From Zoogloea sp. 1C4 (GTDB lineage Bacteria; Pseudomonadota; Gammaproteobacteria; Burkholderiales; Rhodocyclaceae), in NCBI RefSeq assembly GCF_009469605.1, contig NZ_SSXU01000002.1, positions 1 to 64,000 on the forward strand: a stretch of 64,000 bases of DNA, read 5' to 3'. Both the position numbers and the translations under genes were made by a program. The notes under the pieces were generated by a model that ran no database searches, was not told the origin of the DNA, and saw only the letters and a list, made by a program, of their open reading frames with translations. Positions 7,100 to 30,336 of the stretch are shown here, piece by piece (position 1 is the first letter of the stretch; every line of letters begins with the position of its first letter).

Positions 7100-7134
7100 G
7101 ACCGCGACTGCTTCTGATTCTTGCCAATAGGAAA

Positions 7135-8337: not shown

Positions 8338-8360
8338 TTTCAGAACCTTAGGAAATGACA

Positions 8361-8726
8361 ATGGCCAAGACCGTACTCACCGTTGATGATTCTGCCTCCA
8401 TCCGGCAGATGGTGTCCTTCACCCTTAAAAGCGCCGGCTACGAGGTCGTCGAGGCTGTCGATGGCATGGATGGCCTTGACAAGGCCAAGTCCCGCGCCTG
8501 CAACCTGGTCCTCACCGACCAGAACATGCCGCGCATGGACGGCCTGTCCCTCATCAAGTCGCTGCGGGCGATGCCCCAGTACCGCACGGTGCCGATCCTG
8601 ATGCTGACGACCGAATCGTCCGACGCCATGAAGTCCCAGGGCCGCGCCGCCGGCGCGACCGGCTGGCTGGTCAAGCCCTTCGACCCGCAGAAGCTCATCG
8701 AGGTGGTCAAGAAGGTGATCGGCTAA
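8361..8726 (+). CDS. cheY: response regulator CheY, first copy
   Basis: A 121-residue stand-alone receiver. VDD near the N-terminus, the phospho-acceptor aspartate in LVLTDQNMPRMDG, the TTE switch region and KPF are all present. ATG 8361 is preferred to ATG 8355 because TAGGAA at 8349-8354 is correctly spaced only for the former. It sits between the short receptor and cheA. Its sequence (TDQNMPRMDG) differs from the enteric-type CheY at 26.5 kb, so it may be a phosphate sink or serve CheA1 specifically. Confidence 0.93.
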   Translation: MAKTVLTVDDSASIRQMVSFTLKSAGYEVVEAVDGMDGLDKAKSRACNLVLTDQNMPRMDGLSLIKSLRAMPQYRTVPILMLTTESSDAMKSQGRAAGATGWLVKPFDPQKLIEVVKKVIG

Positions 8727-8761
8727 GCCGAGGCTGGCATTCGCGCGTCAGGGAGACAGGC

Positions 8762-11032
8762 ATGGCCATAGACATGAGCCAGTTCTACCAGGTGTTTTTC
8801 GAGGAAGCCGCCGAGCACCTGGCGAGTATGGAGGCGTTGCTGCTGGCGATCGACCCGGCCGCGCCCGACGAGGAGGAGGTTAACGCGCTTTTCCGCGCCG
8901 CCCACTCGATCAAGGGGTCGAGCGGCACCTTCGGCTTCCAGGACATGATGGAGGTCACCCACATCCTCGAGACCATGCTCGACCGGGTTCGCAAGGGCGA
9001 AGCCCCGCTCACCGACGACATGGTGGATGCCTCCCTGGTGGCGGGGGATGTGCTCAAGAACCTGCTTGCCGCCCACCGGGGCGAGGACGAGGCGGACCGG
9101 GAGGCGGCAGAGGCCATCTGTCATCGCCTGCAGGCCTTGTGCAACGCCCTCGACGCGCCCGCCGCCGTATCGTCGATCCCGGCACCCGAGCCCATTGCGC
9201 TGGGCGTGCCGGTCTGCGTCACCGGCTTCGATCTGTATTTCTCGCTGCTTGGCGCATCGCCCGAGGAGCGCCTGGGCAATCTCATCGAGGAGCTGGGCAG
9301 CTTCGGCGTGGTGGAGACGCTCGCCACGCCAACCGCCGACAATCCGGAATGTCACCTGCGGATCACCACCGAGGTCGGCGCCGACGTGCTCCGCGGGATC
9401 ATCGACTTTGTCGCCGACGGCGAGACCGTGCGCATCGAGCCCTTCGGCCAGCAGGACGCCGATGGACATGAGGCCTACGGCTTCTTCCACGACATGATCC
9501 AGCCGGCCGATGAGGCCTACGGCTTCTTTGACCCTCAGCCCGAACCCGATGGCTCGTCAGGCGGCGCGCCGGCGGTGTTTTCGGTCGATGGCGGTGAAGC
9601 CTACGGCTTCTTCACCGATCTTCCCGCCCAGTCCGACGCCCCGGCCGAACCCGAGCCCTATGGGCTGTTCACCGATCCCGAGCCTGCCGCTGCGCCGGCC
9701 GAGACAGCTTACGGTTTCTTCGATCCCCTGCCGCAGGCCGCTCCGGCGGTTGTGGCGGCTGCGCCCGAACCCGCTGCGGTCGTCGAGGCGCCGGCTCCGG
9801 TCGCTGCGCCCACCAAGAAGCCGCCGGCAGTGCGCGCGGCCGGTAGCGGTGACAGTGGCTCGATCCGCGTCAGCGTCGAGAAGGTGGACCAGATGATCAA
9901 CCTGGTGGGCGAACTGGTCATCACCCAGGCCATGCTCACCCAGGCGGCCAGCAACGTCGATCCGGTGATCTTCGAGCGCCTCATCAACGGGCTCGCCCAG
10001 CTGGAGCGCAACACCCGCGATCTGCAGGAATCCGTGATGTCGATCCGGATGATGCCGATCTCGGTGGTGTTCAGCCGCTTCCCGCGGGTGGTGCGCGATC
10101 TGTCCCAGAAGCTCGGCAAGCAGGTCGAGCTGAAGACGATCGGCGAGACCACCGAAATGGACAAGAGCCTCGTCGAACGCATCACCGACCCGCTCACCCA
10201 CCTTGTGCGCAACAGCCTCGACCACGGCCTCGAAACCCCCGAGAAGCGCCGCGCCGCCGGCAAGCCGGAAACCGGCACGATCACCCTGTCGGCCTACCAC
10301 CAGAGCGGCAACATCGTCATCGAGGTGGGTGACGACGGTGCCGGCCTCAACCGCGCCCGCATTCTCTCCAAGGCCAAGGAACGCGGCATGGCGGTGAGTG
10401 ACGCGATGAGCGACCAGGACGTCTGGCAGCTCATCATGGAGCCGGGCTTCTCGACCGCCGAGCAGGTCACCGAGGTGTCCGGCCGTGGCGTGGGCATGGA
10501 CGTGGTCAAGAAGAACATCTCGGCGATGGGCGGGCGGATCGAACTCGATTCGATGCCCGGCGTCGGCACCCGCATCACGGTGCGTCTACCGCTCACCCTG
10601 GCGATCCTTGACGGCATGAGCGTCGGCGTCGGCCCCGAGACCTACATCATCCCGCTGGGCTACGTGATGGAGTCGATGCAGCCGGAGCGCGGCATGATGA
10701 AGAGCGTCTCCGGTGTCGAGCGGCTGATCCAGGTGCGTGGCGAATACCTCCCGGTGATCTGCCTGCACGACGTGTTCCGCATCCAGGGCGCGATCACCGA
10801 CTGGTCGAAGGGGATCATGGTGGTGCTGGAGGCCGACGGACAGAGCGCGGCCCTGTTCATCGACCAGCTCGTCGGCCAGCACCAGGTGGTCATCAAGAGC
10901 CTGGAGGCCAACTACCGGCGGGTGCCGGGGGTGGCCGGGGCAACCATCATGGGCGACGGCCGCGTGGCGCTGATCCTCGACGTGCCGATGCTCGTCGGCA
11001 TGGCCCGGCGGGTGTTGCCGGCGGCGGCCTGA
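8762..11032 (+). CDS. cheA: chemotaxis histidine kinase CheA, first copy, with AYGFF repeats
   Basis: A 756-residue CheA. Domain order: P1/Hpt (about 1-105, phospho-accepting H48 in [10 protein letters not shown]), a P2-like segment (about 140-235), a linker with five (A/P)YG(F/L)F motifs between residues 237 and 321, a proline/alanine-rich spacer, P3 dimerisation (from about 365), the ATPase ([11 protein letters not shown]-box, VGDDGAGL and [10 protein letters not shown]-boxes), and the CheW-like P5. The kinase is intact. It phosphorylates CheY, CheV and CheB. An intrinsic terminator follows, but cheW is only about 130 bp away. Confidence 0.95.
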
Positions 11033-11053
11033 GACAGTCCGTCGCGCGTTTCG

Positions 11054-11078
11054 AAGGCCGCCTCAGGGCGGCCTTTTT
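11054..11078 (+). terminator. intrinsic terminator after cheA1
   Basis: AAGGCCGCC (11054-11062) pairs with GGCGGCCTT (11067-11075) around TCAG and runs into TTTTT. It would reduce read-through into cheW, so cheW probably has an extra promoter or this is a partial attenuator. Confidence 0.85.
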
Positions 11079-11160
11079 CATGCTGGGCGACTGTCTCGAG
11101 ACGCCTTCAGAAACATGGGGGGCTGCCGTAAAAGCCTCTATCGCCAACGAGGAGCATCCC

Positions 11161-11664
11161 ATGTTGCAGGCAACTCAAACCGCTGCCGCCCTGGAGTCGG
11201 AAGGATCCGGCTTCGCCCAGGAGCTGCTGACCTTCACGCTGGGCGCCGAGGAGTACGCGATCGATATCCTGAAGGTCCAGGAGATCCGCGGCTACGACGC
11301 CGTCACCTCGATCGCCAACGCCCCCGCGTTCATCAAGGGGGTGATCAACCTGCGCGGCACCATCGTGCCGATCGTCGATCTGCGCATCAAGTTCGCCGTC
11401 GGCGTCGTCGAATACACCCCCTTCACTGTCGTGATCATCCTCAACATCGGCGGCCGCGTGGTCGGGATGGTGGTGGATGCCGTGTCGGACGTCATTGCGC
11501 TCCAGCCCGAGCAGATCCGCCCGGCGCCGGATTTCGCCTCGTCGGTCGACACCGCCTACATCATGGGCCTGGGCGCCCTGGGCGAGCGGATGCTGATCGT
11601 CGTCGACATCGAGCGCCTGATGCTCTCCAGCGAGATGGCGCTGGTTGACGAAGTGGCGCAGTAG
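11161..11664 (+). CDS. cheW: chemotaxis coupling protein CheW
   Basis: A 167-residue single-domain CheW that bridges receptors to CheA ([47 protein letters not shown] blocks). GAGGAG 6 nt before ATG 11161 fixes the start, excluding an upstream in-frame codon at 11080. It is the only stand-alone cheW in the window; the second CheA must share it or use the CheV proteins. Confidence 0.96.
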
Positions 11665-11706
11665 GCCTGCCTCCGCCGACCCCAACACAAGCTGAGAGTG
11701 ACTGTC

Positions 11707-14700
11707 ATGAGTGGAATTCTTTCGCCGGCCATTGGCGTGATGAACCGGCTGTCCGTGCAGGGCAAGCTGGCCCTGCTGGGGATCATCGGCATGGTGCCGG
11801 TGATCGTGCTGGCCTACCTGCTGCTCGACCGCATCCAGGGCGAGGTGGCGTTTACCCGCCTCGAGACCCGGACCGTGCCGATTGTGATGCCGGCGCGTCA
11901 GCTGCTTCAGGCGGCGCAGGCGCACCGGGGTGTGTCGCAGGCGGTCATCGGTGGCAATACGGCTCAGGCCGGCCGGCTGACCGAACTCGAAGCCAAGGTT
12001 GATGCGGCCCTCAAGGCGGGGGATGCGGCGGGCGCCGAACAACGTGCTGCCGAGCTCGCCACCGACGCCACCTGGCGCGGGCTGGCAAAGGATTGGGCCG
12101 ATGTGAAGGCGCGTGCCGTGACTGTTTCCGGGCCGGAGAGCTTCCGCCTGCATACCGAATACATCAACCGGGTGCGCGACTACATCACGCGGGTGGCCGA
12201 CGCGACCAACGCGACGCTCGATCCGGAGCTGGAAACCTACTACCTCATGGACATGTTCACCGCGCGCCTGCCCGGGCTCGCGGAGGATGCGGGCGCCACG
12301 CGGGCGATTGGCACCGGCATCGCATCGCGCCAGAAGATCGTGGAGAGCGAGCGGGTTGATCTGGGGGTGCTGATGCAGCGCATCGCCGATGCGCGCAGTG
12401 GCGTGGACGCGGCGGTGCAGAAGGCAGGCAGCAAGGACGCCGGCCTGCAGACGCTCCTGGCCGGGCCGGGCAAGACGCTGGCCTCCGAGATGCAGGGCTT
12501 CACCGAACTGGTGAATGGCAGCGTGCTTAAGGCCGCCGAGATCAACATCGCACCGAACCGGGTTTTCGAGACCGGAACCCGGGCGGTGGATAGCGCCTAC
12601 GCCCTGTTCGACATCGCCGCTGCGGAGTTTGACCGTCGCCTGGCGGAACGCCTGACGCGCCTCGAGCAGCTGCGCATGCTGGTCATCGCGGTGATCGTCG
12701 TCTGTCTGCTGGTGGCGGGTTATCTCTTCCTCGGCTTCCGCCGCACGATGCTCACCTCCATCAGCGAGATCCAGTCCGGCCTTGGCCGGATGAGCGCGGG
12801 CAAGCTGGATGAGTCGCTGGTCGTGTGTTCGAGCGACGCCTTCGGCGAGATCGCCGGCGCCCTCAACGGAATGCAGACCAGCCTGAAGGCCAAGATCGCT
12901 GCCGACCACGAAGTGTCAGCCGCCAACCTGCGGGTGCGCAACGCCCTCGACAAGGCCTCGACCAACATCATGCTGGCCGACAACGATGGTCAGATCGTCT
13001 ATTGCAACGAAGCCGTGCTGAGCATGCTGCGTCAGGCCGAATCGGACATCCGCAAGGAGCTGCCCGCATTCAGCGTCGAAGGGCTGGTGGGACGCAACTT
13101 CGATGCCTTCCACAAGAACCCGGCGCATCAGCGCAACGTGCTCGGCCGGCTCACCGGCGAGCATCGTGCCCAGGTAAAGATCGGCGGCCGGACCTTCAGC
13201 CTCATTGCCAACCCGGTGTTCAATGCTCAGGGTGAGCGTCTTGGATCGGTGGTCGAGTGGGGCGACCGGACCAGTGAAGTGCGTATCGAAGAGGAAATGG
13301 CCGACCTGATGGCGGCTGCGGTTGCGGGCAACTTCGCCCGCCGGCTGTCCCTCGAGGGCAAGACCGGTTTCTTCGCGACACTCGCCGACGGCATGAACAA
13401 CCTGATGGGCATCGTGGCGACTAATCTCGACGACATCGCCCGGGTGCTCAATGCCATTGCCCGGGGCGATCTGACCGAGAAGATCACCGCCGACTACGGC
13501 GGCACCTTTGGCCAGCTGAAGGACGACACCAACACCACGGTCGAGCGCCTGCGCGAGGTGGTCGGTCAGATCAAGGACGCGTCCGAATCCATCAACACCG
13601 CGGCCCAGGAAATCGCCGCTGGCAACGCCGACCTGTCGGCGCGCACCGAAGAGCAGGCCAGCAGCCTCGAAGAAACCGCCAGCTCGATGGAGCAGCTCAA
13701 CGCCACCGTCAAGCAGAACGCCGAGAACGCCCGCCAGGCCCGCAACCTCGCCAGCTCCAGCAACGAGGTGGCGGAGCAGGGCGGGGCGATGGTCAATCGG
13801 GTGGTCGAGACCATGGGCTCGATCCAGGACAGCGCGAAGAAGATCGCCGACATCATCGGCGTGATCGACTCGATCGCCTTCCAGACCAACATCCTGGCGC
13901 TCAACGCGGCGGTCGAGGCCGCCCGCGCCGGCGAGCAGGGCCGCGGCTTTGCGGTGGTGGCGAGCGAGGTGCGAAGCCTCGCCCAGCGCAGCGCCCAGGC
14001 CGCCCGCGAGATCAAGGCGCTCATCGCCGACAGCGTGGACAAGGTGGAGGACGGCGCCAGGCTGGTGAACGAAGCCGGCCAGACGATGGAAGACGTCGTC
14101 ACCAACTTCCAGCGCCTGTCCGCCCTGGTTACCGAGATCGCCGACGCCAGCCAGGAACAGAGCGGCGGCATCGAGCAGGTGACCCAGGCCGTCGGCCAGA
14201 TGGACGAAGTGACCCAGCAGAACGCCGCGCTGGTGGAAGAGGCCGCCGCCGCTGCCGAGAGCCTGCAGGAGCAGTCCATGTCCCTGGTGCGCTCGGTGGC
14301 CCATTTTCAGCTCAAGGGCAACTCGGCCCAGGAGCAGCGTGCGCCCACTGCCCTCGACTTCGACGGCGTGATCCAGGCTCACATGGGCTGGAAGCAGAAA
14401 TTGCGGGATTTCATCTCCGGGAGCGGGGAGAACCTCGACCCGGCCGTCGTCTCCCGGGACGACAAGTGCGTGCTGGGCTGCTGGATCCACGGCGAAGGCC
14501 AGCGCTACGCCAGGGAATCCGGCTTCGCCCGCCTCACCAAATCCCATGCCGATTTTCACCGCTGTGCGGGTGACGTCGTCCGCGCCCAGCTGGCCGGTGA
14601 CGAGGCGGGGGCCAAGCGCCTGCTGCTGAACGACTTCTCGGTGCTCTCCGACGAGACCATCCAGGAGATCCGCCGGATGAAGGCCTTGCATGGCCAGCAG

Positions 14701-14850
14701 GCGCCCGTGCCGGTCGCGCCGAAGCCGGTCACGGCCCAGGTCGCCGCCCTGCCGCTGCGCAGCGCCAAGGGGGGGCGGGTTGGAACACCGCTGCCGAAAG
14801 TCCGGCAGCAGGCCGCCAATCTGGCGGAAAGCGAGTGGGAAGAGTTCTGA
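11707..14850 (+). CDS. chemoreceptor with PAS, zinc-binding CZB domain and EWEEF tail
   Basis: About 1047 residues. Two membrane helices (about 18-40 and 322-344) flank a large helical periplasmic sensor. HAMP, a PAS domain (about 410-530), a second HAMP-like stretch and the signalling hairpin follow. After it lies a CZB-like domain (about 885-970) with candidate zinc ligands H in AHMGWKQ, C in KCVLGCWIHG and the H residues of SHADFHR. The last residues EWEEF resemble the NWETF pentapeptide that tethers CheR/CheB. ATG 11707 is chosen (GAGAG at 11694-11698). Its signalling region is nearly identical in DNA to that of the next receptor. Confidence 0.93.
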   Translation: MSGILSPAIGVMNRLSVQGKLALLGIIGMVPVIVLAYLLLDRIQGEVAFTRLETRTVPIVMPARQLLQAAQAHRGVSQAVIGGNTAQAGRLTELEAKVDAALKAGDAAGAEQRAAELATDATWRGLAKDWADVKARAVTVSGPESFRLHTEYINRVRDYITRVADATNATLDPELETYYLMDMFTARLPGLAEDAGATRAIGTGIASRQKIVESERVDLGVLMQRIADARSGVDAAVQKAGSKDAGLQTLLAGPGKTLASEMQGFTELVNGSVLKAAEINIAPNRVFETGTRAVDSAYALFDIAAAEFDRRLAERLTRLEQLRMLVIAVIVVCLLVAGYLFLGFRRTMLTSISEIQSGLGRMSAGKLDESLVVCSSDAFGEIAGALNGMQTSLKAKIAADHEVSAANLRVRNALDKASTNIMLADNDGQIVYCNEAVLSMLRQAESDIRKELPAFSVEGLVGRNFDAFHKNPAHQRNVLGRLTGEHRAQVKIGGRTFSLIANPVFNAQGERLGSVVEWGDRTSEVRIEEEMADLMAAAVAGNFARRLSLEGKTGFFATLADGMNNLMGIVATNLDDIARVLNAIARGDLTEKITADYGGTFGQLKDDTNTTVERLREVVGQIKDASESINTAAQEIAAGNADLSARTEEQASSLEETASSMEQLNATVKQNAENARQARNLASSSNEVAEQGGAMVNRVVETMGSIQDSAKKIADIIGVIDSIAFQTNILALNAAVEAARAGEQGRGFAVVASEVRSLAQRSAQAAREIKALIADSVDKVEDGARLVNEAGQTMEDVVTNFQRLSALVTEIADASQEQSGGIEQVTQAVGQMDEVTQQNAALVEEAAAAAESLQEQSMSLVRSVAHFQLKGNSAQEQRAPTALDFDGVIQAHMGWKQKLRDFISGSGENLDPAVVSRDDKCVLGCWIHGEGQRYARESGFARLTKSHADFHRCAGDVVRAQLAGDEAGAKRLLLNDFSVLSDETIQEIRRMKALHGQQAPVPVAPKPVTAQVAALPLRSAKGGRVGTPLPKVRQQAANLAESEWEEF
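13440..14270 (+). repeat. direct repeat, copy 1: receptor signalling domain
   Basis: About 830 bp encoding the signalling hairpin are nearly identical to 16746-17576, about 3.3 kb downstream. Uninterrupted identity reaches at least 65 bp around 13850-13914. The flanking sensor and tail segments are not similar, so the similarity is confined to the module. Confidence 0.85.
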
Positions 14851-14909
14851 GCTGCAAATCCGTTTGAGGTCTGACACATAGGGTCGGTCTGGTACAGAAG
14901 GAACAAGAA

Positions 14910-17786
14910 ATGAAAATCAACATGCCTGTCACCCAGCATGAGGTGGAGCTGTCCGAGAACTCGCTGATCGTGTCGAAGACCGATCTGAAGGGGCAGATCA
15001 CCTACATCAACCGGGATTTCATCGAGATCAGCGGCTTCACCGAGAGCGAACTGCTCGGCCGGCCGCACAACATCGTCCGACACCCGGACATGCCGGTGGA
15101 AGCCTTCGCGGACATGTGGGTCGCCCTCAAGGAACACCGGCCGTGGGTGGGCCTGGTGAAGAACCGCTGCAAGAACGGCGACCATTACTGGGTCGAGGCC
15201 CATGCCGCGCCGATCGTCGAAAACGGCCAGACCATCGGCTACATGTCGGTGCGCCGCAAGGCCTCCCGCGACCAGATCCAGGCGGCCGAGGCGGCCTATG
15301 CCCTGTTCCGCGAGGGTAAGGCCGGCGGGATGAAGATCCGCGATGGCCGCGTCGTTCGTGACGGGGTGTTCGGGCCGGTGAAGCATCTCCTGTCGAGCAT
15401 GAAGGTGCGCAGCGCGATCATGATGTCCATGACGCTGATGACGATCATCGTCGTGGCCCAGGGTTACATCGGGATGGCCAAGCTCTCGGAAGCCGATGAG
15501 GCCATCAGCCAGACTTACGAGCGGCGTCTGAAGCCTGCCATCGATATTGCGCGGGTCGAGAATGCCATCGCCGAATCCCGCTCGCAGATCCTGCTGGGCC
15601 TTGTCCATGCGCCGGACAATCCGGCCAGCAAGACGCTGAACCATACCCTCGACGGGCACCTGACGGCGCTCGACAAGTCGATGGCCGAGGCGGCCGCGCT
15701 GTGGAACGTCTATGGCGACGAGAACTACGCCCGCACGGCGGAGCTCAAGGGGCTGCTCGCCAAGTTTGGCGAAGCCCGTCAGGGGCTGATCGCCAAGGGT
15801 CTGACCCCCGCCCGTGAGGCGCTTGCCGCCGGTCGGTTCGACGACGCCAACCGCATCGTCGCCACAGAGCTGGCGGCCCACTTCGACGCGGCCCGTGTCG
15901 CGGCCCGGGGTGTTCAGGAGTACATGCTCACCCGCGCCGACCAGCAACGTCAGGAGGCCATCGCCCAGTACCAGAAGACGCTTTACCTGACGATTGCCGG
16001 TGTGGTGCTGTCGGTGCTGTTTGCGCTGGTGCTGGTGTGGTGGCTGGTCCGCCGGATCGTCGGTCCGCTCAGGAGCGCGGTCGGTGTGTTCCAGCAGATC
16101 GCCCAGGGCAACTTCCAGTCGGCGGTCGAAACCGGCCGCCGGGACGAAATCGGCCAGGTGCTCGATGGACTCGAATCCATGCAGGTGCGCCTGGGTTACG
16201 ACGTGGCGGAGGCCAAGATCGTCTCTGACGCGATGGCCCAGATCAAGGTGGGCCTGGATACGGTGGAAACCAACGTCCGGATCGCCGATGTGCATGGTCG
16301 CGTGCTGTACGCCAACCCGGCCCTGCTCAAGACCATCGCCGGGATCGAGGATCGCATCCGCGAATACGCCCCGGGCTTCAGCGCGAGCAGTTTCGTGGGG
16401 AGCAGCATCGGGGGGCTTTACCCCGATCCTGATGCGGCGCTGCGCCGTCTTGCCGGCTTGACCGAGACCGCCCGCACCCAGATGGTAATTGGCGGCCGGA
16501 CCTTCGACGTGGTGACCAGCCCGGTCTTCAGCGAAACCGGCGAACGCCTCGGTTCGGCGGGCGAATGGCGTGACCGCACCGATGAACTGGCCGCCGAGCG
16601 CGAAGTGCAGGCCATCGTGTCGGCCGCTGCCGACGGCGACTTCTCGGCGCGGCTCGAAAGCACCGGCAAGACCGGCTTCTTCCTCGATCTGTCGAATGGA
16701 CTCAACCGCCTGATGGAAGGCGTGGCAGCGAGCCTCGGCGACCTGGGTCGCGTGATGAACGCCATCGCCCGGGGTGACCTGACCGAGAAGATCGATGCGG
16801 ATTACAGCGGGACCTTCGGCCAGCTGAAGGACGACACCAACACCACCGTCGAGCGCCTGCGTGAGGTGGTCAGCCAGATCAAGGAAGCGGCCGAATCCAT
16901 CAACACCGCGGCCCAGGAGATCGCGGCCGGCAACTCCGATCTGTCGGCCCGTACCGAAGAGCAGGCCAGCAGCCTCGAAGAAACCGCCAGCTCGATGGAG
17001 CAGCTCAACGCCACCGTCAAGCAGAACGCTGACAACGCCCGTCAGGCCCGCGAGCTGGCCAGCTCCAGCAACGAGGTGGCCGAGCAGGGCGGCGAGATGG
17101 TCAATCGTGTCGTCGGCACGATGGGCTCGATCCAGGAAAGCTCCAAGAAGATCGCCGACATCATCGGCGTGATCGACTCGATCGCCTTCCAGACCAACAT
17201 CCTGGCGCTCAACGCGGCGGTGGAAGCCGCCCGCGCCGGCGAGCAGGGCCGCGGCTTTGCGGTGGTGGCGAGCGAAGTGCGCAGCCTTGCCCAGCGCAGC
17301 GCCCAGGCCGCCCGGGAGATCAAGGCGCTCATCGCCGACAGCGTGGACAAGGTGGAAGACGGCGCCAAGCTGGTGAACGAAGCTGGCCAGACCATGGAAG
17401 AGGTGGTGGCCAACTTCCAGCGCCTGTCGGTGCTGGTGACCGACATCTCCGAGGCCAGCCAGGAGCAGAGCGGCGGCATCGAGCAGGTGACCCAGGCCGT
17501 CGGCCAGATGGACGAAGTGACCCAGCAGAACGCCGCGCTGGTGGAAGAAGCCGCAGCAGCAGCGGAGAGCCTGGAGGACCAGGCCCGCACGCTGGTCCGC
17601 GCCGTCTCGATGTTCCGCCTGAGCGCGGCTGGCGCGCCTTCCGCCGTCGTGCCGGACAACGTCGCCCGCCTGCCCGAGCGCCCCGCACGGCCGGCGCCGA
17701 AGGCGGTGGTTGCGCCGGTGTCGAAGGTGCGCAAGGCGAGCGTCGCCGTTGGCGGTGACATGGATGACGAGTGGGAAGAATTCTGA
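14910..17786 (+). CDS. Aer-like PAS chemoreceptor with EWEEF tail
   Basis: A 958-residue receptor. An N-terminal cytoplasmic PAS domain (about 1-125, [21 protein letters not shown] ... NIVRHPDMP) is of the Aer energy-taxis type. Two membrane helices (about 169-190 and 358-380) flank a helical periplasmic domain. HAMP, a second PAS (about 440-565) and the signalling hairpin follow. It ends DEWEEF, a CheR/CheB-binding-like tail, with cheR starting 11 bp later. It plausibly senses redox or electron transport, but the flavin-binding residues were not verified. Confidence 0.93.
16746..17576 (+). repeat. direct repeat, copy 2: receptor signalling domain
   Basis: Partner of the repeat at 13440-14270. 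Both copies are in the same orientation and frame, so unequal recombination would yield one in-frame chimeric receptor and delete about 3.3 kb. Confidence 0.85.
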
Positions 17787-17797
17787 AGAGCCCGGCA

Positions 17798-18712
17798 ATG
17801 ACTGAAAAACTCACAGCACGCCGGCCCCTGTCGGCAAGCACGGCCCCACGGCCTGCACCCCGCCCGGTTTCCACGGGCGTGGCCCAACCGGATCGGGAGT
17901 TCGCCTTCTCCCCCGCAGACTTCGAACGGGTCCGCGCGCTGATCTACAAGCACGCGGGCATCTCCCTGTCGCCGGTCAAGCAGGACATGGTCTATAGCCG
18001 GCTGGCCCGGCGCCTGCGGGCGCGGGGCGACCGGACCTTCGCCGAATACCTCGACCGGGCCGAGCGGGAGCCGGACGAATGGGAAACCTTCGTCAATAGC
18101 CTCACCACCAACCTGACCTCGTTCTTCCGCGAGGCTCATCACTTCGACATCCTCGCCGAGCGCCTGAAGAAGCACGCTGGCCGTGGCCCGGTGCGGATCT
18201 GGTGCAGCGCGGCATCCACCGGCGAGGAACCCTACAGTCTGGCGATCACGGCCTGCGAAGCCTTCAACACGATGACGCCGCCGGTGCAGATCGTCGCCAC
18301 CGACATCGACACCAACGTGCTCGCCACCGCCGGGAAGGGCGTGTATGGCCTCGACCGGGTCGATCGCCTGTCGCGGGAGCGGATGCAGCGCTTCTTCCTC
18401 AAGGGCACCGGCACCCAGGCCGGGCTGGCGCGGGTGCGGCCCGAGCTGCAGCGGCTGATCGAATTCAAGCGCATCAACCTGCTTGATACCCACTGGGCGC
18501 TGCAGGGGCCTTTCGATTACATGTTCTGCCGGAACGTGATGATCTATTTCGACAAGCCGACCCAGCACACCATCCTCAAGCGCTTCGTGCCCCTGCTCAA
18601 GTCGGACGGCCTGTTGTTTGCCGGCCACTCCGAAAGCTTCCTGCACGCCGCCGATCTATTCCGGTCGCTCGGTCGGACGGTCTACGAAAGGACGGATGCC
18701 CGTGACCGATGA
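17798..18712 (+). CDS. cheR: chemotaxis protein methyltransferase CheR
   Basis: A 304-residue SAM-dependent enzyme that methylates receptor glutamates. N-terminal helical domain, then the methyltransferase fold with the SAM-binding STGEEPYS motif and the FCRNVMIYF block. An N-terminal extension of about 35 proline-rich residues precedes the core. ATG 17798 is chosen (GAAGAG upstream) over GTG 17771, which lies inside the previous gene. The EWEEF tails of the two upstream receptors are the likely docking site. Its end overlaps cheD by 17 bp. Confidence 0.95.
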   Translation: MTEKLTARRPLSASTAPRPAPRPVSTGVAQPDREFAFSPADFERVRALIYKHAGISLSPVKQDMVYSRLARRLRARGDRTFAEYLDRAEREPDEWETFVNSLTTNLTSFFREAHHFDILAERLKKHAGRGPVRIWCSAASTGEEPYSLAITACEAFNTMTPPVQIVATDIDTNVLATAGKGVYGLDRVDRLSRERMQRFFLKGTGTQAGLARVRPELQRLIEFKRINLLDTHWALQGPFDYMFCRNVMIYFDKPTQHTILKRFVPLLKSDGLLFAGHSESFLHAADLFRSLGRTVYERTDARDR

Positions 18713-19316
18713 TCCCGGCTATGTGGAACATCTGGCGACCAATCGCTATTTCGACCGGACCTTTGATTGCGACGCGGTAAAGGTGCTGCCGGGCGAATAT
18801 TTCGTCACCACGTCCGACATCCTGCTGGTCACCGTGCTGGGGTCCTGCGTTACCGCGTGCATCCGCGATCGGGAGAAGGGGCTGGGGGGCATGAACCATT
18901 TCATGCTGCCGGAAACGAATGAGGGTTCGGGAATGCTCAGCACCTCGGCCCGCTACGGCGTTTATGCAATGGAGGTCTTGCTGAACCATCTGCTCAAATT
19001 GGGTGCGCGCAGGAGCAGTCTCGAAGCCAAGGTATTTGGCGGCGGAAAGGTATTGGCAAGCCTGACCCAGGCGCAGGTGGGAGAGAAGAATGCGCAGTTC
19101 GTTCTCGATTATCTCGACACCGAGCGGATACCCATCGTGGCGCAGGATCTACTCGATATCTACCCCCGCAAGGTGTACTTCTTTCCGGCCAGCGGGCGGG
19201 TCATGATGAAAAAACTGGTTCGCGTGAAAAACGACACGCTCGTTGCTCGCGAGCGCGAATATGAAGCCCGACTTCGACGCGACAATGTGCAAGGCGACGT
19301 CGAGCTATTTGGTTGA
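18696..19316 (+). CDS. cheD: chemoreceptor glutamine deamidase CheD
   Basis: A 206-residue CheD that deamidates receptor glutamines and can interact with CheC-like partners. The catalytic cysteine (VLGSCVTAC) and histidine (GGMNHFMLP) are present. ATG 18696 overlaps cheR; a GTG at 18702 has better spacing from AAGGA (18688-18692) and is a close alternative. The protein ends GDVELFG, resembling the GEIDLF tail of the short receptor at 7.1 kb. Confidence 0.93.
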
Positions 19317-19354
19317 CCGGGTTTTTGCACCGGTTTCGATACTGGAAACAGAGC

Positions 19355-20449
19355 ATGGCAATCAAGGTTCTAATCGTCGACGACTCCGCGCTGATGCGGA
19401 GCATGCTGTCAGAGGTCATCAATTCCGCGTCCGATCTCGAAGTGGTTGGCGTTGCACCCGACCCCATCATCGCGCGGGAAATGATCAAGACGCACAATCC
19501 GGACGTTCTGACGCTGGATATCGAAATGCCCAAAATGGACGGGCTCGATTTCCTGGCGCGTCTGATGCGGCTCCGGCCGATGCCCGTCGTGATGATTTCG
19601 AGCCTGACGCAGCGGGGTTCTGAAGCCACGCTGCAGGCGCTCGAATTGGGCGCGGTGGATTTCCTGCCCAAGCCGAAACTGGACTCGACGGCCGGAATAG
19701 AGAACTATCGTGTAGAAATTTGTGAAAAGGTCCGGGCCGCGTATGGCGCCAGGCCCCGTGTGCCGTTAAGAGCTGTAACAGCACCGAAACCCTTGCTGCG
19801 AGAGCCTTCCGAGGGGATTGGCGGGGGGGCTGGAAACCTTCCCGAACGGGTATTGCAGGAGAAACTGGTGCTGATCGGGGCCTCGACGGGTGGCACCGAG
19901 GCCATCAAGGAAGTGCTATGTTCTCTGCCCGGGCAAATGCCTGGAATCCTGATCGTTCAGCACATGCCGGAGATGTTCACCGCGTCCTTCGCGAAACGTC
20001 TTGATGGGCTGTGCCAGATGCGGGTCAAGGAGGCCGAGCATGGCGAGAAGGTGATGCCGGGCACAGCCTATCTGGCGCCGGGGCATTCGCATCTGTCGCT
20101 GCGGCGCGTGGTGGGGGGCTATGTCTGCGAACTCGCCCAGTCGGAGCCGGTCAATCGGCACCGGCCGGCGGTGGATGTGCTGTTCCACTCGGCGGCCAAG
20201 CAGGTCGGGGCCAACGCGCTGGGGGTGATCCTCACCGGGATGGGCAAGGACGGCGCCCAGGGGCTGCTGGCGATGAAGCAGGCCGGCGCATGGACGATCG
20301 GACAGGATCAGGAGTCCTGCGTGGTTTACGGCATGCCGCGTGAAGCGGCAGCCATCGGCGCCCTCGATGATGTGGCGCCGCTGAAGGAAATCGGGCAACG
20401 TGTGCTCTCCCGTCTGCGCGGGATCGAACGCCGGGGTCTGAGGGCATGA
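19355..20449 (+). CDS. cheB: receptor methylesterase CheB
   Basis: A 364-residue CheB. N-terminal receiver ([12 protein letters not shown], phospho-aspartate in [12 protein letters not shown]), linker, then the methylesterase with the serine ([11 protein letters not shown]), histidine (VQHMP) and aspartate ([10 protein letters not shown]) of the catalytic triad. It removes methyl groups added by CheR. ATG 19355 begins the conserved [10 protein letters not shown]; the upstream in-frame extension is not conserved-looking. It closes the cheR-cheD-cheB set. Confidence 0.96.
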
Positions 20450-20512
20450 ATTGAGCGATGGCCGGCGCGAGCCGGTGATGTGGTAAGTGGAACGTACAAT
20501 TAGAGGCTAGAA

Positions 20513-20818
20513 ATGGATACCAGCGTCAGCACCCAGCAGAGTCAGGCCAGGATTCAGCTCTCCGGGCGGTTTGATTTCAACTCCCACCGGGAATTCCGCG
20601 ATGCGGTGGACAAGGCCCTGGGCAGTCCCGGCACCACCGAGGTCGCCGTTGATCTCGGCAACGTCGCCTACCTCGACAGTTCTGCCCTGGGCATGCTGCT
20701 GATGCTCCGCGACAAGGCCAAGACATCCGGCAAGACTGTCTGCCTGGCCAATGCCCGTGGCAGCGTGCGGCAGGTTCTGGACATCGCCAACTTCGGCAAG
20801 CTCTTCCCGATCGTGTAG
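20513..20818 (+). CDS. STAS-domain anti-sigma factor antagonist, HsbA-like
   Basis: A 101-residue single STAS domain. The motif YLDSSALGML places the predicted phosphorylated serine at S56, directly after D55. In Pseudomonas, HsbA is a protein of this kind, phosphorylated and dephosphorylated by HsbR and able to bind the anti-sigma factor FlgM. The adjacent gene encodes an HsbR-like protein starting 2 bp after this stop. HsbA/HsbR function is inferred from domains and pairing; CrsA/CrsR-type control of a general stress sigma factor is the main alternative. Confidence 0.85.
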   Translation: MDTSVSTQQSQARIQLSGRFDFNSHREFRDAVDKALGSPGTTEVAVDLGNVAYLDSSALGMLLMLRDKAKTSGKTVCLANARGSVRQVLDIANFGKLFPIV

Positions 20819-20820
20819 CG

Positions 20821-22569
20821 GTGGCCGAGCAAGACCCCGAATCCCTCTTCATTCTTGTTGTAGATGACAATCCCGACGATCTTTTCCTGATCCGTCGGGA
20901 TCTGGTGGCCCTTGGTCACCGTGTCGCTGGTGTCAGCACGGCCAAAGAGGCGCTTGCGCACATCGCCCGGGCTTACCCCGACGTTCTGATGACCGATGTC
21001 GGCCTGCCCGGCATGGACGGCATTGAATTGCTCCAGACGGTCCGGATGCGGACCGACGGCAGCTGGATTCCCAGCCTGGTGTTCACCGGCAGCCTGGATG
21101 AGGCGACGCAGATGCGTGCCCTCGAAGCGGGCGCCGACGCCTACCTCTGCAAGCCCGCCTCCCGCGAAATGCTGCGCGCCAAGCTCGGAGTGATCCTCCG
21201 GCTCAAGGCCATGCAGCGGCAGGCCGAGGCGCGCAACCGCGAGCTTGCCCGCTACCGCAGCCTCCAGGAAGAAGAGCAGCGGCTGGCGCGCTTCGTGATG
21301 GAGCGCCTGATCAACCGCGAGGCTCTGGGCGATCCCGCCCTGTCCCACTACATCGCCTCCGCGGCCGAATTCTCCGGCGACCTGATCGCCGCCGCCCGAA
21401 CCCCCGCCAACGTACTCCACGTGCTCCTCGCCGACGGCGCCGGTCATGGCCTGGCCGCGTCGCTCAACGTGCTGCCGGTGACCGCGCCTTTCTACCGGAT
21501 GACCGAGCGGGGTTTCGGCATCGACGCCATCGCCCGCGAGATCAACAGCAAGGTGCGTGCGCTGCTGCCGGTCGATCGCTTCATCGCGGCCACCCTGGTC
21601 GCCGTCAATTTCCGCGAGCGCTACGTGACCGTCTGGAACGGCGGCAATCCGGGGCCGCTCCTGGTGCGGCCGGATGGCCGCGTGCGCATCCATTTCAACC
21701 GCCACCACTTTCCCCTCGGGGTGGTGGATGACGACGAGTTCGACGGCACCGTCGATACCCACGTCGTCAATCCCAGCGACCACCTGCTGCTGTTCTCCGA
21801 CGGCCTCATCGAGCAGGAGGACGCCGATGGTGCGGCCCTGGGGGTCGAAGGGCTCGGGGGCGCGCTCGAAGGGCTTGAAGCCGATGCCCGGCTGCCGCGT
21901 CTCATCGACATCGTCCACCAGCTCACTGGCGGCAACCCGCCCCGGGATGACATCTCCATCGCCCAGATCGCCCTGGCCGACTCCCCCAGCCGGGTGCCCA
22001 GCCAGCTGCCGGGCGAGGCGGTGGCGCCGTTCAACACCAGCGACTGGCGCCTGGTGCTGCGCCTGGGGGCGACCGACCTCAAGCGCCTCGACGCGGTGCC
22101 ACTGATCCTCGGCGCCATCGAGCAGTTCGAGGGCGTGCGTCCGTTCACCGGGCGCCTGTTCCTGGTGCTGTCCGAACTCTTCAACAACGCGCTGGATCAC
22201 GGCCTGCTGCGCCTGCCTTCGTCCCTCAAGGTCGGGGCGGAGGGCATGGACGTGTTTCTCGAGGAGCGCTCCCGCCGGCTTTCGCGGCTGGCGGTGGGGG
22301 CGGTCGAGTTCGAACTGACCCTGCGTCAGAGCCTCGACCGGGCGCCGATGCTGCACATCGGCTGCGTCGATACCGGCCCCGGTTTCGACCACGAGCAGCA
22401 GGTGGCGGAGGCCATGCGCGAGCCGACCACCGAAGAAATGCTCAAGGGCCACGGCCGCGGCATTCCGCTGCTGCTGCGGGTCTGCGAGGAAGTGCGCTAC
22501 AGCGGTTCCGGCAACCGGGTGGATGTGGTCTTCCGCCTTGCCGAACGGGGCGCCGACGGGCTCAAGTAG
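20821..22569 (+). CDS. receiver / PP2C phosphatase / anti-sigma kinase protein, HsbR-like
   Basis: A 582-residue three-module protein with GTG start. Receiver (about 9-128, phospho-acceptor D59 in LMTDVGLPGMDG), SpoIIE-type PP2C phosphatase (about 185-385, LADGAGHG, GGNPG and DDISIAQ blocks), and a GHKL ATPase of the anti-sigma kinase kind (about 405-575, LSELFNNALDHG and GHGRGIPLL). It should phosphorylate and dephosphorylate the neighbouring STAS protein under control of receiver phosphorylation. Location inside the che cluster suggests CheA or an Hpt protein as phosphodonor, which is an inference. Confidence 0.88.
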   Translation: MAEQDPESLFILVVDDNPDDLFLIRRDLVALGHRVAGVSTAKEALAHIARAYPDVLMTDVGLPGMDGIELLQTVRMRTDGSWIPSLVFTGSLDEATQMRALEAGADAYLCKPASREMLRAKLGVILRLKAMQRQAEARNRELARYRSLQEEEQRLARFVMERLINREALGDPALSHYIASAAEFSGDLIAAARTPANVLHVLLADGAGHGLAASLNVLPVTAPFYRMTERGFGIDAIAREINSKVRALLPVDRFIAATLVAVNFRERYVTVWNGGNPGPLLVRPDGRVRIHFNRHHFPLGVVDDDEFDGTVDTHVVNPSDHLLLFSDGLIEQEDADGAALGVEGLGGALEGLEADARLPRLIDIVHQLTGGNPPRDDISIAQIALADSPSRVPSQLPGEAVAPFNTSDWRLVLRLGATDLKRLDAVPLILGAIEQFEGVRPFTGRLFLVLSELFNNALDHGLLRLPSSLKVGAEGMDVFLEERSRRLSRLAVGAVEFELTLRQSLDRAPMLHIGCVDTGPGFDHEQQVAEAMREPTTEEMLKGHGRGIPLLLRVCEEVRYSGSGNRVDVVFRLAERGADGLK

Positions 22570-22599
22570 CGCCGGCGGCGTCTCTCCTGTCGGTCTCCC

Positions 22600-22626
22600 T
22601 TAAGTTCCCCGGGGGCCTGTCGATAA
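22600..22626 (+). promoter_or_regulatory. predicted sigma28 (FliA) promoter of the receptor at 22.7 kb
   Basis: TTAAGTTC (22600-22607), 11-bp spacer, GTCGATAA (22619-22626). The -10 matches FliA consensus at 7 of 8 positions. It lies about 100 bp before the receptor start. Confidence 0.75.
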
Positions 22627-22729
22627 GAACGTCGATATTGTGGGCTGCCCAGCCGGGCCGCCCGTCGAGTTGCCGGTAGCGCGTTGCGCTGTCCGGTCAT
22701 CGTTCGAGACAGGGGAGTGGCCGGACATC

Positions 22730-24409
22730 ATGCGAGTTCAACTTGTTTCAGGCGCCATCGGATTATGCGCAGCCATTGGTGCCGCGGGAGCCGGGCTGGC
22801 CTTCGGTGCTCCGCTGACGGCCGGCTTCGCGGGCGTGAGTGTGGCCCTCGGGGTCTTCATCGGTGTGGCGACGATCATGGCCTGTCGGGTGCTGTTCGTG
22901 CAGCCTCTGGGCGAGATGCGTGACACCATCCGGGCGATGCAACGGGATGGCGATCTTTCCCGCCGCGCGCCGGTCTCCGGTGGCCAGGTGGGTGAAGTCG
23001 AGCTTGTCTTCAACGAGCTGATCGAGAGCCTGCAGGGCATCGTCGGCAAGGTGATCTTCGACGCCCAGCGGGTGTATGAGGCGGCCGACCTGCTGTCGGG
23101 CTACGCCGGCCGGGTGGCGGAAGGCTCCTCCGGGCAGCGCGACGCAGCCGAGAGCATGGCCGTGGCGATCGAGCAGATGACCGCCGGCGTCAATGCGGTG
23201 GCCGACCACGCCAGTCAGACGGCGGCCAACGCCCAGGCGGCGCGGGAGCTGTCGGTGCAGGGCGGCGAGGTGGCGACCAGCGCCTCGCGGGAGATCGAGC
23301 GCATCGCTGCCTCGGTGGCCGATTCGGCCCGGGTGATCGCCTCGCTGGGCGAGCGCTCCGAGGCCATCAGCGGCATCGTCAAGGTGATCCACGAGATTGC
23401 CGACCAGACCAACCTGCTGGCGCTCAATGCGGCGATCGAACCCGCCCGGGCCGGCGAGCAGGGGCGTGGCTTCGCGGTGGTGGCCGATGAAGTGCGCAAG
23501 CTTGCCGAACGCACCTCGTCGGCGACCCGGGAGATCGGCGGCATGATCTCGGCGATCCAGTCCGAGACCAAGAGCGCCATCGCCGCCATCGACGTGGGCA
23601 GCGTGCAGGCCCACGCCGGGGCCGACCTGGCCCGCCGGGCAGCAAGCTCGCTGGACCAGATCAACCAGGGCGCGCTGCAGACGATGGAGAAGATCGATGC
23701 GATCGCCGTCGCCATCACCACCCACAGCCACGAGGCCGAGCAGATCGCCGGCCACGTGCGGCAGATCATGGAGATGGCCGGCCACAACTCGGAAGGCGCG
23801 CGGGAAACCCTCGCCGAGGCCACCAGCCTGCGGGATCTGGCGGTAAACCTGAAGGAGATCCGCCGCGTCTTCAAGCTGGGCCCCGCGGGCGAACAGGCGA
23901 TGGTGGTGCACAAGAAGATGCCCGACATCGTCCGCGAAGCCTCCCGCCAGATCAGCGAGATGCTCGAGCGGGCGGTCGCCAGCGGGCAGATCAGCGAGGC
24001 CGACCTGTTCGACGAAGCCTACAAGCCGATCCCGAACACCCGTCCGCAGAAATACAGCACCCGCTTCGATGCGCTCACCGACCGGCTCTTCCCCAGCCTC
24101 CAGGAGCGCCTGCTGGACGGCAATGGCGAGGTGGTCTACGCCATCGGCACCGACCGCAACGGCTATGTGCCGACCCACAACAAGCGCTTCTGCCAGCCGC
24201 TCACCGGCGACTACAACAAGGACATCGTGGGCAGCCGGACCAAGCGGATCTTCGACGATCCGGTGGGCAAGCAGTGCGGCAAGAACCAGATGCCCTTCCT
24301 GATCCAGACCTACCGCCGGGATACCGGCGAAATCATGCACGACATCTCTGCGCCGATTTACGTGAACGGCCGCCACTGGGGCGGTTTCCGGATCGGTTAC
24401 AGGGCCTGA
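22730..24409 (+). CDS. chemoreceptor with membrane hairpin and C-terminal cytoplasmic sensor domain
   Basis: A 559-residue receptor. Two adjacent N-terminal membrane helices (about 8-58) leave essentially no periplasmic domain. HAMP-like and signalling regions follow, then about 135 residues of a Cache/PAS-like C-terminal domain ([19 protein letters not shown] ... [17 protein letters not shown]). Sensing is therefore probably cytoplasmic. The hairpin tip reads [12 protein letters not shown], with proline at about residue 238 where alanine is usual. No EWEEF tail. ATG 22730 is preferred; the upstream in-frame region has no membrane or domain features. Confidence 0.85.
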
Positions 24410-24484
24410 CGCGCGGTGCGGCATGACGCGTCCTGCGGGGGCGCGCGGGTGCTGCGGCCGCTCTCGAAGAGGCGCTTCCCAGCC

Positions 24485-24511
24485 TCAAGATTATTCTTAC
24501 CCCGCCGATAT
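24485..24511 (+). promoter_or_regulatory. predicted sigma28 (FliA) promoter of the cheV operon
   Basis: TCAAGATT (24485-24492), 11-bp spacer, GCCGATAT (24504-24511). It is nearly the same as the motA promoter and lies 62 bp before cheV. Confidence 0.88.
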
Positions 24512-27847: not shown

Positions 27848-29839
27848 ATGAGCGATTTTTCCGGGATGGAAGACCTTCTGCAGGATTTCCTCGTCGAAGC
27901 GGGGGATCTGCTGTCCGGCGTGGATAACAAGCTGGTGGATCTCGAACGGGCGCCCGACGACAAGGGACTCCTGAACGACATCTTCCGCGGCTTCCACACC
28001 ATCAAGGGCGGTGCTGGCTTTCTCAACGCGGCCGAGCTGGTCACCCTGTGCCACCTTACCGAGAACCTCTTCGATCTCCTGCGCAACGGCGAACTCGTCG
28101 TGACGCCCGAGATCATGGACGTGATCCTGTCGTCCACCGGCTCGGTGCGCGACATGTTCGGCTATCTCGAGCAGGGCGTGCAGCCACCGGCTGCCGATCC
28201 GCACCTGATCGAGGATCTGCGCCGCGCCATTGCCGGCGAGCTGAGCCAGTCGTCATCGTCTGCTCCGGCGCCCGCCCCGGCAGCTGCGCCCGTTGCTGTC
28301 GCACCGGCGCCTGCCGCTGCTCCGGTGCTTGCCGCGGATGGCCTCGACTGGAACGAACTGCTCGAAGCCGTCACTGGCGCCCCGGCGAGCGCGCCGGCTC
28401 CAGCGCCCGTGCTGCAGGCCGTGCCTGCACCGGCACCTGCTCCCGCTCCCGCTCCCGCTCCCGCACCCGCGCCGGTGGTCATGCATCAGAGCGACGCCGA
28501 ACTCGCCAGCAAGTCGCCAGAGGAAGTCATCAAGGCCGCCGTCGGCCGCCGTGCCTCCGATCGCCCCGGCGCCAGTGGCCCGGTGGGCCGCCGCGACACC
28601 GAGAAAACCCGTGACAACTCGATCCGCGTGGACACCTCGCGTCTCGATCAGGTGCTCAACCTGTCCGGCGAGATCGGCCTCACCAAGAACCGCCTCAACG
28701 CCCTGCGCAGCGACATCCTCAACGGCCGCAGCGACACCGAGACCCTGCACGCCCTCGATCTGGCCGTGAGCCAGCTCGACCTGCTGGTGTCCGACCTGCA
28801 GAACGCGGTGATGAAGACCCGCATGCAGCCCATCGGCCGGCTGTTCCAGAAATACCCGCGCATCGCCCGCGATCTGGCCCGCAACCTGGGCAAGGACGTG
28901 GAGCTGGTGCTCTCCGGCGAAGACACCGAGATCGACAAGACGATGATCGAGGATCTGTCCGATCCGATCATCCACCTCATCCGCAACGCGGTGGACCACG
29001 GCGTCGAGGAAACCCAGGAGCGCCTCGCCAACGGCAAGCCCGAGAAATCCATCGTCCGCCTCGAAGCCCGCCAGGAAGGTGACCACATCGTGATCCTGGT
29101 GGCCGACGACGGCCGCGGGATGAACGCCGAGAAGCTGCGCGCCAAGGCGGTCGAGAAGGGCCTCATCACCGATGAGGAAGCCAACACCATGGACGAGCGC
29201 CAGAGCTACAACCTGGTGTTCCTCCCCGGCTTCTCGATGGCCAGCCAGGTGTCGGACGTGTCCGGCCGCGGCGTGGGCATGGACGTGGTGCGCACCAACA
29301 TCCAGAAGCTCAACGGCTCCATCGACATCCGCTCGAGCATGGGCAAGGGCACCACCTTCATCATCAGCCTGCCGCTCACCCTGGCGATCCTGCCGGTGCT
29401 GCTGGTGCGTCTCGGCGATCAGCCCTTCGCCGTGCCCCTGTCGATGGTCCGCGAGATCCTTCCGATCGAGCCCGCCGAAGTGCAGGAAGTCGGCGGCCGC
29501 GCCACCATGGTCGTGCGCGGTGAAGTCCTGCCGATCATGCCGCTCTCGACCCTGCTGGGCTGGGAGCAGAACCAGACGCCCGAATACGGCGTGCTCATGC
29601 AGAGCGCCGAGCAGAGTTTCATCCTCGCCATCGACAGCTTTGCCGGCCGCGAAGACGCGGTGATCAAGTCCCTCGACGACTTCCGTCCGAAGGGTGTTGC
29701 CGGGGTCACCACCTTGTCCAACGGCCAGATCGTGCTGATCCTCGACATGAAGGAGCTTCTCGGTGCGATGGGCGACACCCGCGGCGTCTCCCGTCGGGTG
29801 CTCCTCGCCCACCTCGAACTGCCGGCCCTCGCGGCCTGA
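27848..29839 (+). CDS. cheA: chemotaxis histidine kinase CheA, second copy
   Basis: A 663-residue CheA of the Pseudomonas kind. P1/Hpt with phospho-accepting H50 ([11 protein letters not shown]), a long alanine/proline linker (about 135-220) with no recognisable P2, P3 ([23 protein letters not shown]), an intact ATPase ([28 protein letters not shown]) and P5. It follows cheY2-cheZ. It has no adjacent cheW and differs strongly from CheA1, so two separate kinases operate from one locus. Confidence 0.95.
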
Positions 29840-30030: not shown

Positions 30031-30336
30031 ATGGGTGACTTCGACTTCGATTACTGGAAAGACCTCGCCGAGCAGGACCCGCCCGGGTTCTTTCGTGCCC
30101 GCGAGCAGCTCCTGCGTCAGTGCATCGCCCTCCATCCCCAGCAGGCCCAGGAACTCACCGAATTCCAGGCCCACATCGACGCCACCCGACTGCTGGCCGG
30201 CAGCCCGCTGCTGGCCAGCCGCGCGTTGTTCAGCCTCCTCGAAGACCAGCTGATGCTGCTCAGCGCCAGGCTCGGCGAACTGCACCGGGAAACCAGCGGC
30301 CTGCGCGACCTGCTGGCCAGCGGGCAGACCGCCTGA
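30031..30336 (+). CDS. small uncharacterised protein, DUF3135-like
   Basis: A 101-residue acidic protein with no membrane segment (FDFDYWKDLAEQDPPGFFRAREQLLRQCI). The opening resembles the DUF3135 family, whose function is unknown; this is pattern recognition, not a search result. It lies between cheA2 and flhB on the motility strand, 190 bp after cheA2. No clear ribosome site beyond GGGAGAG about 10 nt upstream. Confidence 0.6.
   Translation: MGDFDFDYWKDLAEQDPPGFFRAREQLLRQCIALHPQQAQELTEFQAHIDATRLLAGSPLLASRALFSLLEDQLMLLSARLGELHRETSGLRDLLASGQTA

Follow-up and report, generated by a model that had tools for sequence, protein, structure and literature searches.

Introduction

What does a two-gene partner switch that closes a chemotaxis operon of Zoogloea sp. 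1C4 control, and where does its input come from? The window, the whole stretch of DNA analysed here, comprises positions 1 to 64,000 of contig NZ_SSXU01000002.1 (assembly GCF_009469605.1). The genes in question are located on the plus strand and encode an HsbA/CrsA-like, STAS-only anti-sigma antagonist of 101 amino acids (20513-20818) and an HsbR/CrsR-like regulator of 582 amino acids with a GTG start (20821-22569), in which a receiver, a PP2C phosphatase and a HATPase domain follow each other. By domains, residues and predicted fold the pair is almost certainly a partner switch of the CrsA/CrsR-HsbA/HsbR type, and we assign a probability of roughly 0.55 to the reading that this switch is driven by the chemosensory system and has RpoS (sigma-S) as the most likely target.

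We infer phosphotransfer, the direction of switching, the target and the dependence on FliA in the following scheme. The SpoIIAB-like HATPase domain of the regulator would phosphorylate the STAS protein at Ser56 and hold a sigma factor, in Zoogloea most likely RpoS. Phosphorylation of Asp59 of the receiver by the chemotaxis kinase CheA1 would activate the PP2C domain, which would then dephosphorylate the STAS protein, and the resulting change of partner would alter sigma-factor availability. A second output may lead from the STAS protein via the anti-sigma factor FlgM to the flagellar sigma factor FliA, as in Pseudomonas. The switch would mainly be made in cells with active FliA, since the unit from motA to the pair appears to start at a FliA-type promoter.

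This kind of switch is already known and the Zoogloea pair is a further member; no literature on the pair in Zoogloea was recognised in a search of incomplete coverage. As a 2018 review of these switches reportedly proposed chemosensory systems as frequent sensing modules, the linkage of chemotaxis genes to a partner switch is not in itself new.

Domains, residues and predicted fold of the pair

The two genes, which are separated by 2 bp, encode the proteins that the original prediction had described. The STAS protein scores above the Pfam cut-offs for STAS_2 (8e-19) and STAS (5e-15) and above the cut-off for the NCBIfam family ant_ant_sig. Ser56, said to occupy the phosphorylation position, is indeed the first serine of a D55-S56-S57 motif that is invariant in 11/11 aligned STAS proteins. 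The regulator matches Response_reg (9e-21), SpoIIE/PP2C (2e-31) and HATPase_c_2 (5e-7), all above the Pfam cut-offs, with the receiver domain at 20851-21186, the SpoIIE/RsbU-type phosphatase domain at 21412-21963 and the SpoIIAB-like kinase and anti-sigma domain at 22144-22530. The residues which we take to be catalytic are all present among the 20 positions checked in the window regulator, including D15/D16, the phospho-site D59, T89 and K111 in the receiver, D187 (just ahead of the Pfam-matched stretch), D205, D327 and D376/D377 in the PP2C domain, and E452, N456, H460 and D517 in the HATPase domain.

The AlphaFold model of the full-length regulator, built with 14 sequences, has a mean predicted local distance difference test score (pLDDT) of 79.1 and a predicted template modelling score (pTM) of 0.49. 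A Foldseek search with this model places RssB of Pseudomonas aeruginosa (3eq2/3f7a) first and the RsbU-RsbW protein Rv1364c, which the predicted PP2C-HATPase part resembles, at rank 6. RssB, the best whole-model match, shares the layout of a receiver followed by a PP2C fold; it has no HATPase domain, in E. coli it hands RpoS over to degradation, and it is not known to us as the partner of a STAS gene. The HATPase domain modelled alone (mean pLDDT 83.5, pTM 0.81) has LvrC (9qih), a response regulator of Leptospira, as its first match, followed by five SpoIIAB entries (1tid, 1til, 1th8, 1l0o, 1thn), of which 1l0o has a bound sigma factor, and beyond these there is no entry with E <0.05. Because entries named histidine kinases appear only later, the modelled C-terminal domain looks like the anti-sigma/serine-kinase type, unlike the chemotaxis kinase domain. 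An ordinary histidine kinase at the C-terminus is rejected, as entries so named begin at E 0.13, behind LvrC and SpoIIAB. An anti-phage system is likewise rejected, as PADLOC matched neither the STAS protein nor the regulator.

The SpoIIAA/SpoIIAB/SpoIIE and RsbV/RsbW/RsbU systems combine the same components, namely a STAS antagonist, a HATPase kinase/anti-sigma factor and a PP2C phosphatase. In Zoogloea, however, the kinase and the phosphatase are fused behind a receiver, and a target of the SigB/SigF family is not implied. Closer are HsbA/HsbR/HptB of P. aeruginosa, which share the domain architecture and even the number of the phospho-serine, S56 (PMC6482189), and CrsA/CrsR of Shewanella oneidensis, likewise a STAS protein and a receiver-PP2C-anti-sigma protein (domains from PMC6482189). 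Likened by architecture and context, CrsA/CrsR in the Shewanella Che1 operon is the nearest studied case by context, as it forms one transcription unit with genes for methyl-accepting chemotaxis proteins (MCPs), cheY, cheA, cheW, cheR, cheD and cheB (PMC9855816, in excerpt). Che1 and the flagellar chemotaxis cluster of Shewanella, Che3, are distinct (PMC7666153, in excerpt), while the Zoogloea pair ends a motAB-mcp-cheY-cheA-cheW-mcp-mcp-cheR-cheD-cheB unit with a FliA-type motif.

Gene context and conservation

The pair is located between cheB (19313-20449, plus strand) and a chemoreceptor gene on the same strand (open reading frame 22640-24409, likely start 22730), which leaves a gap of 160 bases behind the regulator. 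From motA (5158) to the end of the regulator (22569) every gap between genes is at most 63 bp or the genes overlap, and the same apparent transcription unit holds the pair together with cheA, cheW, mcp, cheR, cheD and cheB, the part before the pair being motA, motB, mcp, cheY1, cheA1, cheW, mcp, mcp, cheR, cheD and cheB (5158-20449, plus strand). The proposal of an HsbA/HsbR-like pair within a chemotaxis operon is thus borne out by architecture, residues and gene context, and its placement between cheB and a receptor proved correct.

Among the titled loci L001-L024 the STAS gene immediately precedes the regulator in 22/22 with upstream DNA, L020 and L024 being left out as they begin within the regulator and L029-L034 as they match the receiver part only. 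As the order cheB-STAS-regulator is kept in 21/21 loci reaching cheB (Zoogloea, Rhodocyclaceae and near kin), the placement behind cheB is not due to chance. The nearest titled locus, in a Zoogloea metagenome-assembled genome, encodes a regulator 98% identical to that of the window. In the window the receptor and then CheVs come next, with the cheV-cheY-cheZ-cheA2-flh-fliA genes following, and CheV, CheY, CheZ, CheA2 and flhB also come next in the loci that extend far enough. In a tree the Zoogloea regulators fall within a 12-row set, every row of which comes from a che cluster (Shimodaira-Hasegawa-like approximate likelihood ratio test 100, short search).

Two genome samples extend the survey. 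Of the 274 genomes in the class sample, 66 reach E <=1e-40 with the regulator profile, and 53 of these were kept, hand-chosen from the listed coordinates as having a single match that spans the HATPase part (G122 and G237 among them without a matched receiver; G090 and G259 were excluded, as their parts lie in separate matches). In 25/53 pair-bearing genomes, the window genome included, same-strand cheD and cheB genes are within reach of the regulator, with 10 loci of 9 of the 53 genomes too short to judge che linkage. In the order sample of 349 genomes, 102 match at E 1e-90; 80 with a match reaching the HATPase part were hand-picked, besides the window genome, and 20 regions were examined, 10 of them from genomes below the RpoS cut-off. 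Ten core residues of the regulator (D59, K111, D187, D205, D327, D376, D377, E452, N456, D517) are all kept in 89/111 rows and in 17/20 rows from RpoS-less genomes, the exceptions being G327, G285 and G010.

Pseudidiomarina/Idiomarina loci encode the STAS protein and the regulator with no che matches in reach (4/4), and the receiver is degenerate in all three examined. In G519, a member of the family of the window (locus L160), the pair is located between flhDC and cheY-cheZ and not behind cheB, and the receiver phospho-aspartate is replaced by glycine. This replacement would fit the loss of its CheA; as G327 has a degenerate receiver within an intact cluster, no conclusion is drawn.

Input to the receiver

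Two CheA proteins are encoded on the plus strand of the window: CheA1 (8762-11032; Pfam Hpt, HATPase and CheW), the type of cheD-containing clusters, and CheA2 (27848-29839), the type found beside cheY-cheZ and the alternative phosphodonor. In like-for-like comparisons CheA1 scores above CheA2 against the CheA of cheD clusters in 13/13 class-sample loci where both match, while CheA2 scores above CheA1 against the cheZ-linked CheA of L158, L159 and L170 but in L067, with its F6-like cluster, is only slightly ahead (339 vs 304 bits). Given its higher score with the CheA of cheR-cheD-cheB clusters, CheA1 would be the preferred phosphodonor candidate, and input from CheA1 to the receiver is likely as judged from sequence.

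An Hpt model made from two sequences detected no stand-alone linked Hpt gene (hptB) in the 12 rows of Zoogloea and Rhodocyclales type; Hpt domains unlinked to the pair occur elsewhere in the genome of the window. As the only Hpt genes found near the pair are the two cheA genes, a CheA is the best-linked phosphodonor. P. aeruginosa HsbR, in contrast, is fed by HptB, the gene of which is linked (PMC5085249, in excerpt). Strict filing of the Zoogloea pair as an Hsb pathway is rejected, as linked hptB was not found.

In three loci (L113, L118, L070) an Hpt domain follows directly behind the regulator, 2/3 of them within a cheR-cheD-cheB cluster, and by their gene order these loci appear to be forms between the che-linked and the HptB-linked arrangements. 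The order cheR-STAS-regulator-Hpt of L070 equals that of P. aeruginosa (PMC5085249, in excerpt).

Outside the window, contig C96 of its genome (G000) carries at ~296.6-297.2 kb a second STAS domain directly before an Hpt domain in a CheA-sized frame of 747 amino acids, possibly another linkage of STAS and chemosensory functions in the same genome. On contig C64 of G000 a HATPase_c_2 match is followed by a PP2C match (~176.7-178.7 kb), perhaps a second serine-phosphorylation switch.

Candidate targets: RpoS, FlgM and FliA

The original prediction had proposed that CheA might control FliA activity directly through the receiver and had named a general-stress sigma regulator as the partner that would speak against this. 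That very factor is now the leading target, because HsbR and CrsR bind RpoS (PMC6482189; PMC9855816, in excerpt) and rpoS is encoded here, with 430 bits against a cut-off of 378.7. The Che1 operon, which contains CrsA/CrsR, 'could be involved' in RpoS control (PMC9855816, PMC7666153, both in excerpt). As the genome of the window encodes FliA and FlgM besides RpoS, both an RpoS and a FlgM/FliA output are possible. The genes fliA (sigma-28; 37014-37787, plus strand), flgM (anti-sigma-28; 39999-40307, minus strand, Pfam FlgM 6.5e-18) and a potential cyclase gene encoding an HDOD-REC-GGDEF protein upstream of flhDC (1790-3865) are located in the window, as had been noted.

One genus has three genomes (G287, G544, G602; loci L151, L152, L153) in which a cheR-cheD-cheB-STAS-regulator cluster ends next to a full rpoS gene, convergent to the regulator at a distance of ~45-180 bp; a second rpoS is present elsewhere in each genome. 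In another genus (G198, G066) rpoS is found 6-11 kb downstream of the regulator on the same strand.

Several observations weigh against a CheA-driven switch that acts on RpoS. The rpoS neighbourhoods amount to two events, about one per genus, and are suggestive only; in the first genus the fourth genome with the pair, G334, is without an rpoS neighbour. The top match of the HATPase model, LvrC, is not named as an anti-sigma factor. Some che-linked members (G327, G285, G139) show degenerate receiver residues. Without the window, the class sample has 24 cheD-type loci, and in 8 of them the ~3 kb downstream of the regulator contain an Hpt domain, either on its own or as part of a bigger protein (two of these finds also by Pfam Hpt), so that CheA need not be the donor in those 8 loci. 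In the class sample, with RpoS scored at E 1e-100 and the genomes not being independent, FlgM is detected in 44/53 pair-bearing vs 105/221 pair-less genomes (p=2e-6), and RpoS in 43/53 vs 154/221 (p=0.13); no association of the pair with RpoS is seen within FlgM-positive or within FlgM-negative genomes. Moreover, the pair is kept without detected RpoS in 10/53 class genomes, where a renewed search at E 1e-15 gave only matches that, from score and length, are read as RpoD, RpoH and FliA (best 291 bits). In the order sample RpoS scores above the cut-off in 56/80 genomes; of the 24 below, 6 were given no weight, as their housekeeping factor was unmatched at the usual score, and likewise G432 with a cut RpoS-like match. 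Of the ten regions examined from RpoS-less genomes of this sample, 9/10 have the order cheR-cheD-cheB-STAS-regulator, including the single-contig G453 and G492 and, with a cheD only 28% identical, G446; in the remaining one, G377, the cluster is looser.

These absences bear on an alternative in which the dephosphorylated STAS protein would bind FlgM and free FliA, so that the array tunes flagellar genes and RpoS is not the main target. Dephosphorylated HsbA of P. aeruginosa does bind FlgM (PMC6482189; PMC5085249, in excerpt), and flgM and fliA are in the same flagellar region as the pair, which in the class sample tracks FlgM and not RpoS. In 6/10 of the RpoS-less class genomes, at least 97% complete, the pair is located in a cheD-type cluster, with FliA above cut-off in 6/6 and FlgM detected in 4/6. 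As the pair is thus retained together with FliA in che clusters of RpoS-less genomes, FlgM binding by the Zoogloea STAS protein, by analogy with HsbA, is possible. Against this, published FlgM binding was found for Pseudomonas HsbA only, the flagellar association of the pair is expected from che linkage alone and is confounded by it, and the modelled HATPase fold would point to a direct sigma-factor client. In addition, the pair is present without detected FlgM in 9/53 genomes and with FliA below cut-off in 7/53. Six of the latter have RpoS, and a cheD-type cluster was not seen around the pair in 5 of these 6, the sixth, G221, being 82% complete. FlgM is matched in 3 of the 7 (G034, G154, G221), where FliA may therefore have escaped detection. 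We consider FlgM as main target unlikely.

The same gaps on either side can be reconciled by a dual switch, in which the HATPase domain would hold RpoS and the free STAS protein FlgM, trading the stress response against motility. Zoogloea has RpoS, FliA and FlgM, either target alone can be undetected while the pair persists, and such is the published Pseudomonas model (PMC6482189). Both interactions are, however, putative in Zoogloea by analogy, and the two studied systems do not agree on which phosphorylation state of the STAS protein binds to the regulator (PMC6482189), which leaves the dual switch a tentative possibility, well short of an even chance.

The pair could also act on something other than RpoS and FlgM, for instance a cyclase, the chemotaxis machinery or a further sigma or anti-sigma factor. 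In G075 and G203, which are 97-99% complete, the pair is cheD-linked, and RpoS and FlgM both went undetected. In P. aeruginosa phosphorylated HsbA works with the cyclase HsbD (PMC5085249, in excerpt), and the HDOD-REC-GGDEF gene of the window, ~17 kb upstream of the pair, stands upstream of flhDC, although a linked form of hsbD was not recognised in Zoogloea. Yet FlgM is short and divergent, which makes its absence uncertain, and G075 and G203 both have FliA, so that we regard another target as improbable.

A module dedicated to RpoS only is rejected, as the pair is retained without detected RpoS in several lineages, which argues that RpoS is not the sole target of this partner-switch family. 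A FliA-only module is rejected as well because of the 7/53 genomes with FliA below cut-off, with the caveat of the 3 FlgM matches among them. Overall, the mechanism of the original prediction is partly supported: the observation itself is confirmed and a CheA would be the best-linked phosphodonor, but the literature reports two outputs, of which FlgM/FliA is just one, and the FliA-type motif upstream of motA would place FliA upstream of the pair, too.

If the preferred reading of a chemosensory-driven switch acting on RpoS is true, the sensors for swimming also set sigma-factor use, and one array decides on both direction and exit from the motile state. More speculatively, the arrays of flagellated proteobacteria might control a sigma factor through a non-RpoS core output (FlgM-FliA or another flagellar target), RpoS control in Shewanella being one branch, a generalisation that we consider rather doubtful. 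If it holds, chemotaxis signalling is coupled to flagellar gene expression, with a feedback loop in Zoogloea, as the operon encoding the switch is itself apparently FliA-driven. RpoS-less genomes such as G453 and G492, in which the che-linked pair persists, offer natural experiments for a non-RpoS target, and the genus with rpoS beside the pair offers one for RpoS.

FliA-type sites and transcription of the pair

A FliA-type promoter-like site, TCAAG-N14-GCCGATA, is found as an exact match upstream of motA (5067-5092), a second exact site before the likely start of cheV (24485-24510) and a degenerate one upstream of the receptor gene behind the regulator (22600-22625), all on the plus strand. 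In a scan of 20200-24500 neither a sigma-70-like promoter nor a plus-strand terminator-like site was detected. The textbook FliA consensus, the starting form of the motif search, gives 7 matches in the window vs 2.96 expected, and 6/100 shuffles reached as many. After this initial search the pattern was adapted to the sites seen, so that the figures for the adapted motif are somewhat favourable: the two exact matches in the window compare with 0 in any of 100 shuffles, and 12 matches with at most two mismatches with 3.25 expected.

The site upstream of cheV is exact in 12/12 Zoogloea loci (L001-L012), and a good site right behind the regulator is present in 6/12 of them (2 exact, 4 relaxed). 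More distant relatives lack the relaxed motif in all 7 regions searched, and 4 of these regions include motA. As the other Zoogloea loci end short of motA, the motA-upstream site is known from the window only. As the operon starts with this FliA-type motif, FliA probably drives the pair, and in the likely reading of these sites the pair closes a FliA-driven unit behind which new FliA-driven units begin.

Further features of the flagellar region

A FliA-type site with one mismatch (1754-1779) is located just ahead of the HDOD-REC-GGDEF gene. The flagellar region also holds two stator sets, motAB (5158-7081) and motCD (37808-39413), besides the two CheA types. A DUF3135 protein is encoded at 30031-30336 between cheA2 and flhB and recurs in the Zoogloea loci that reach that far.

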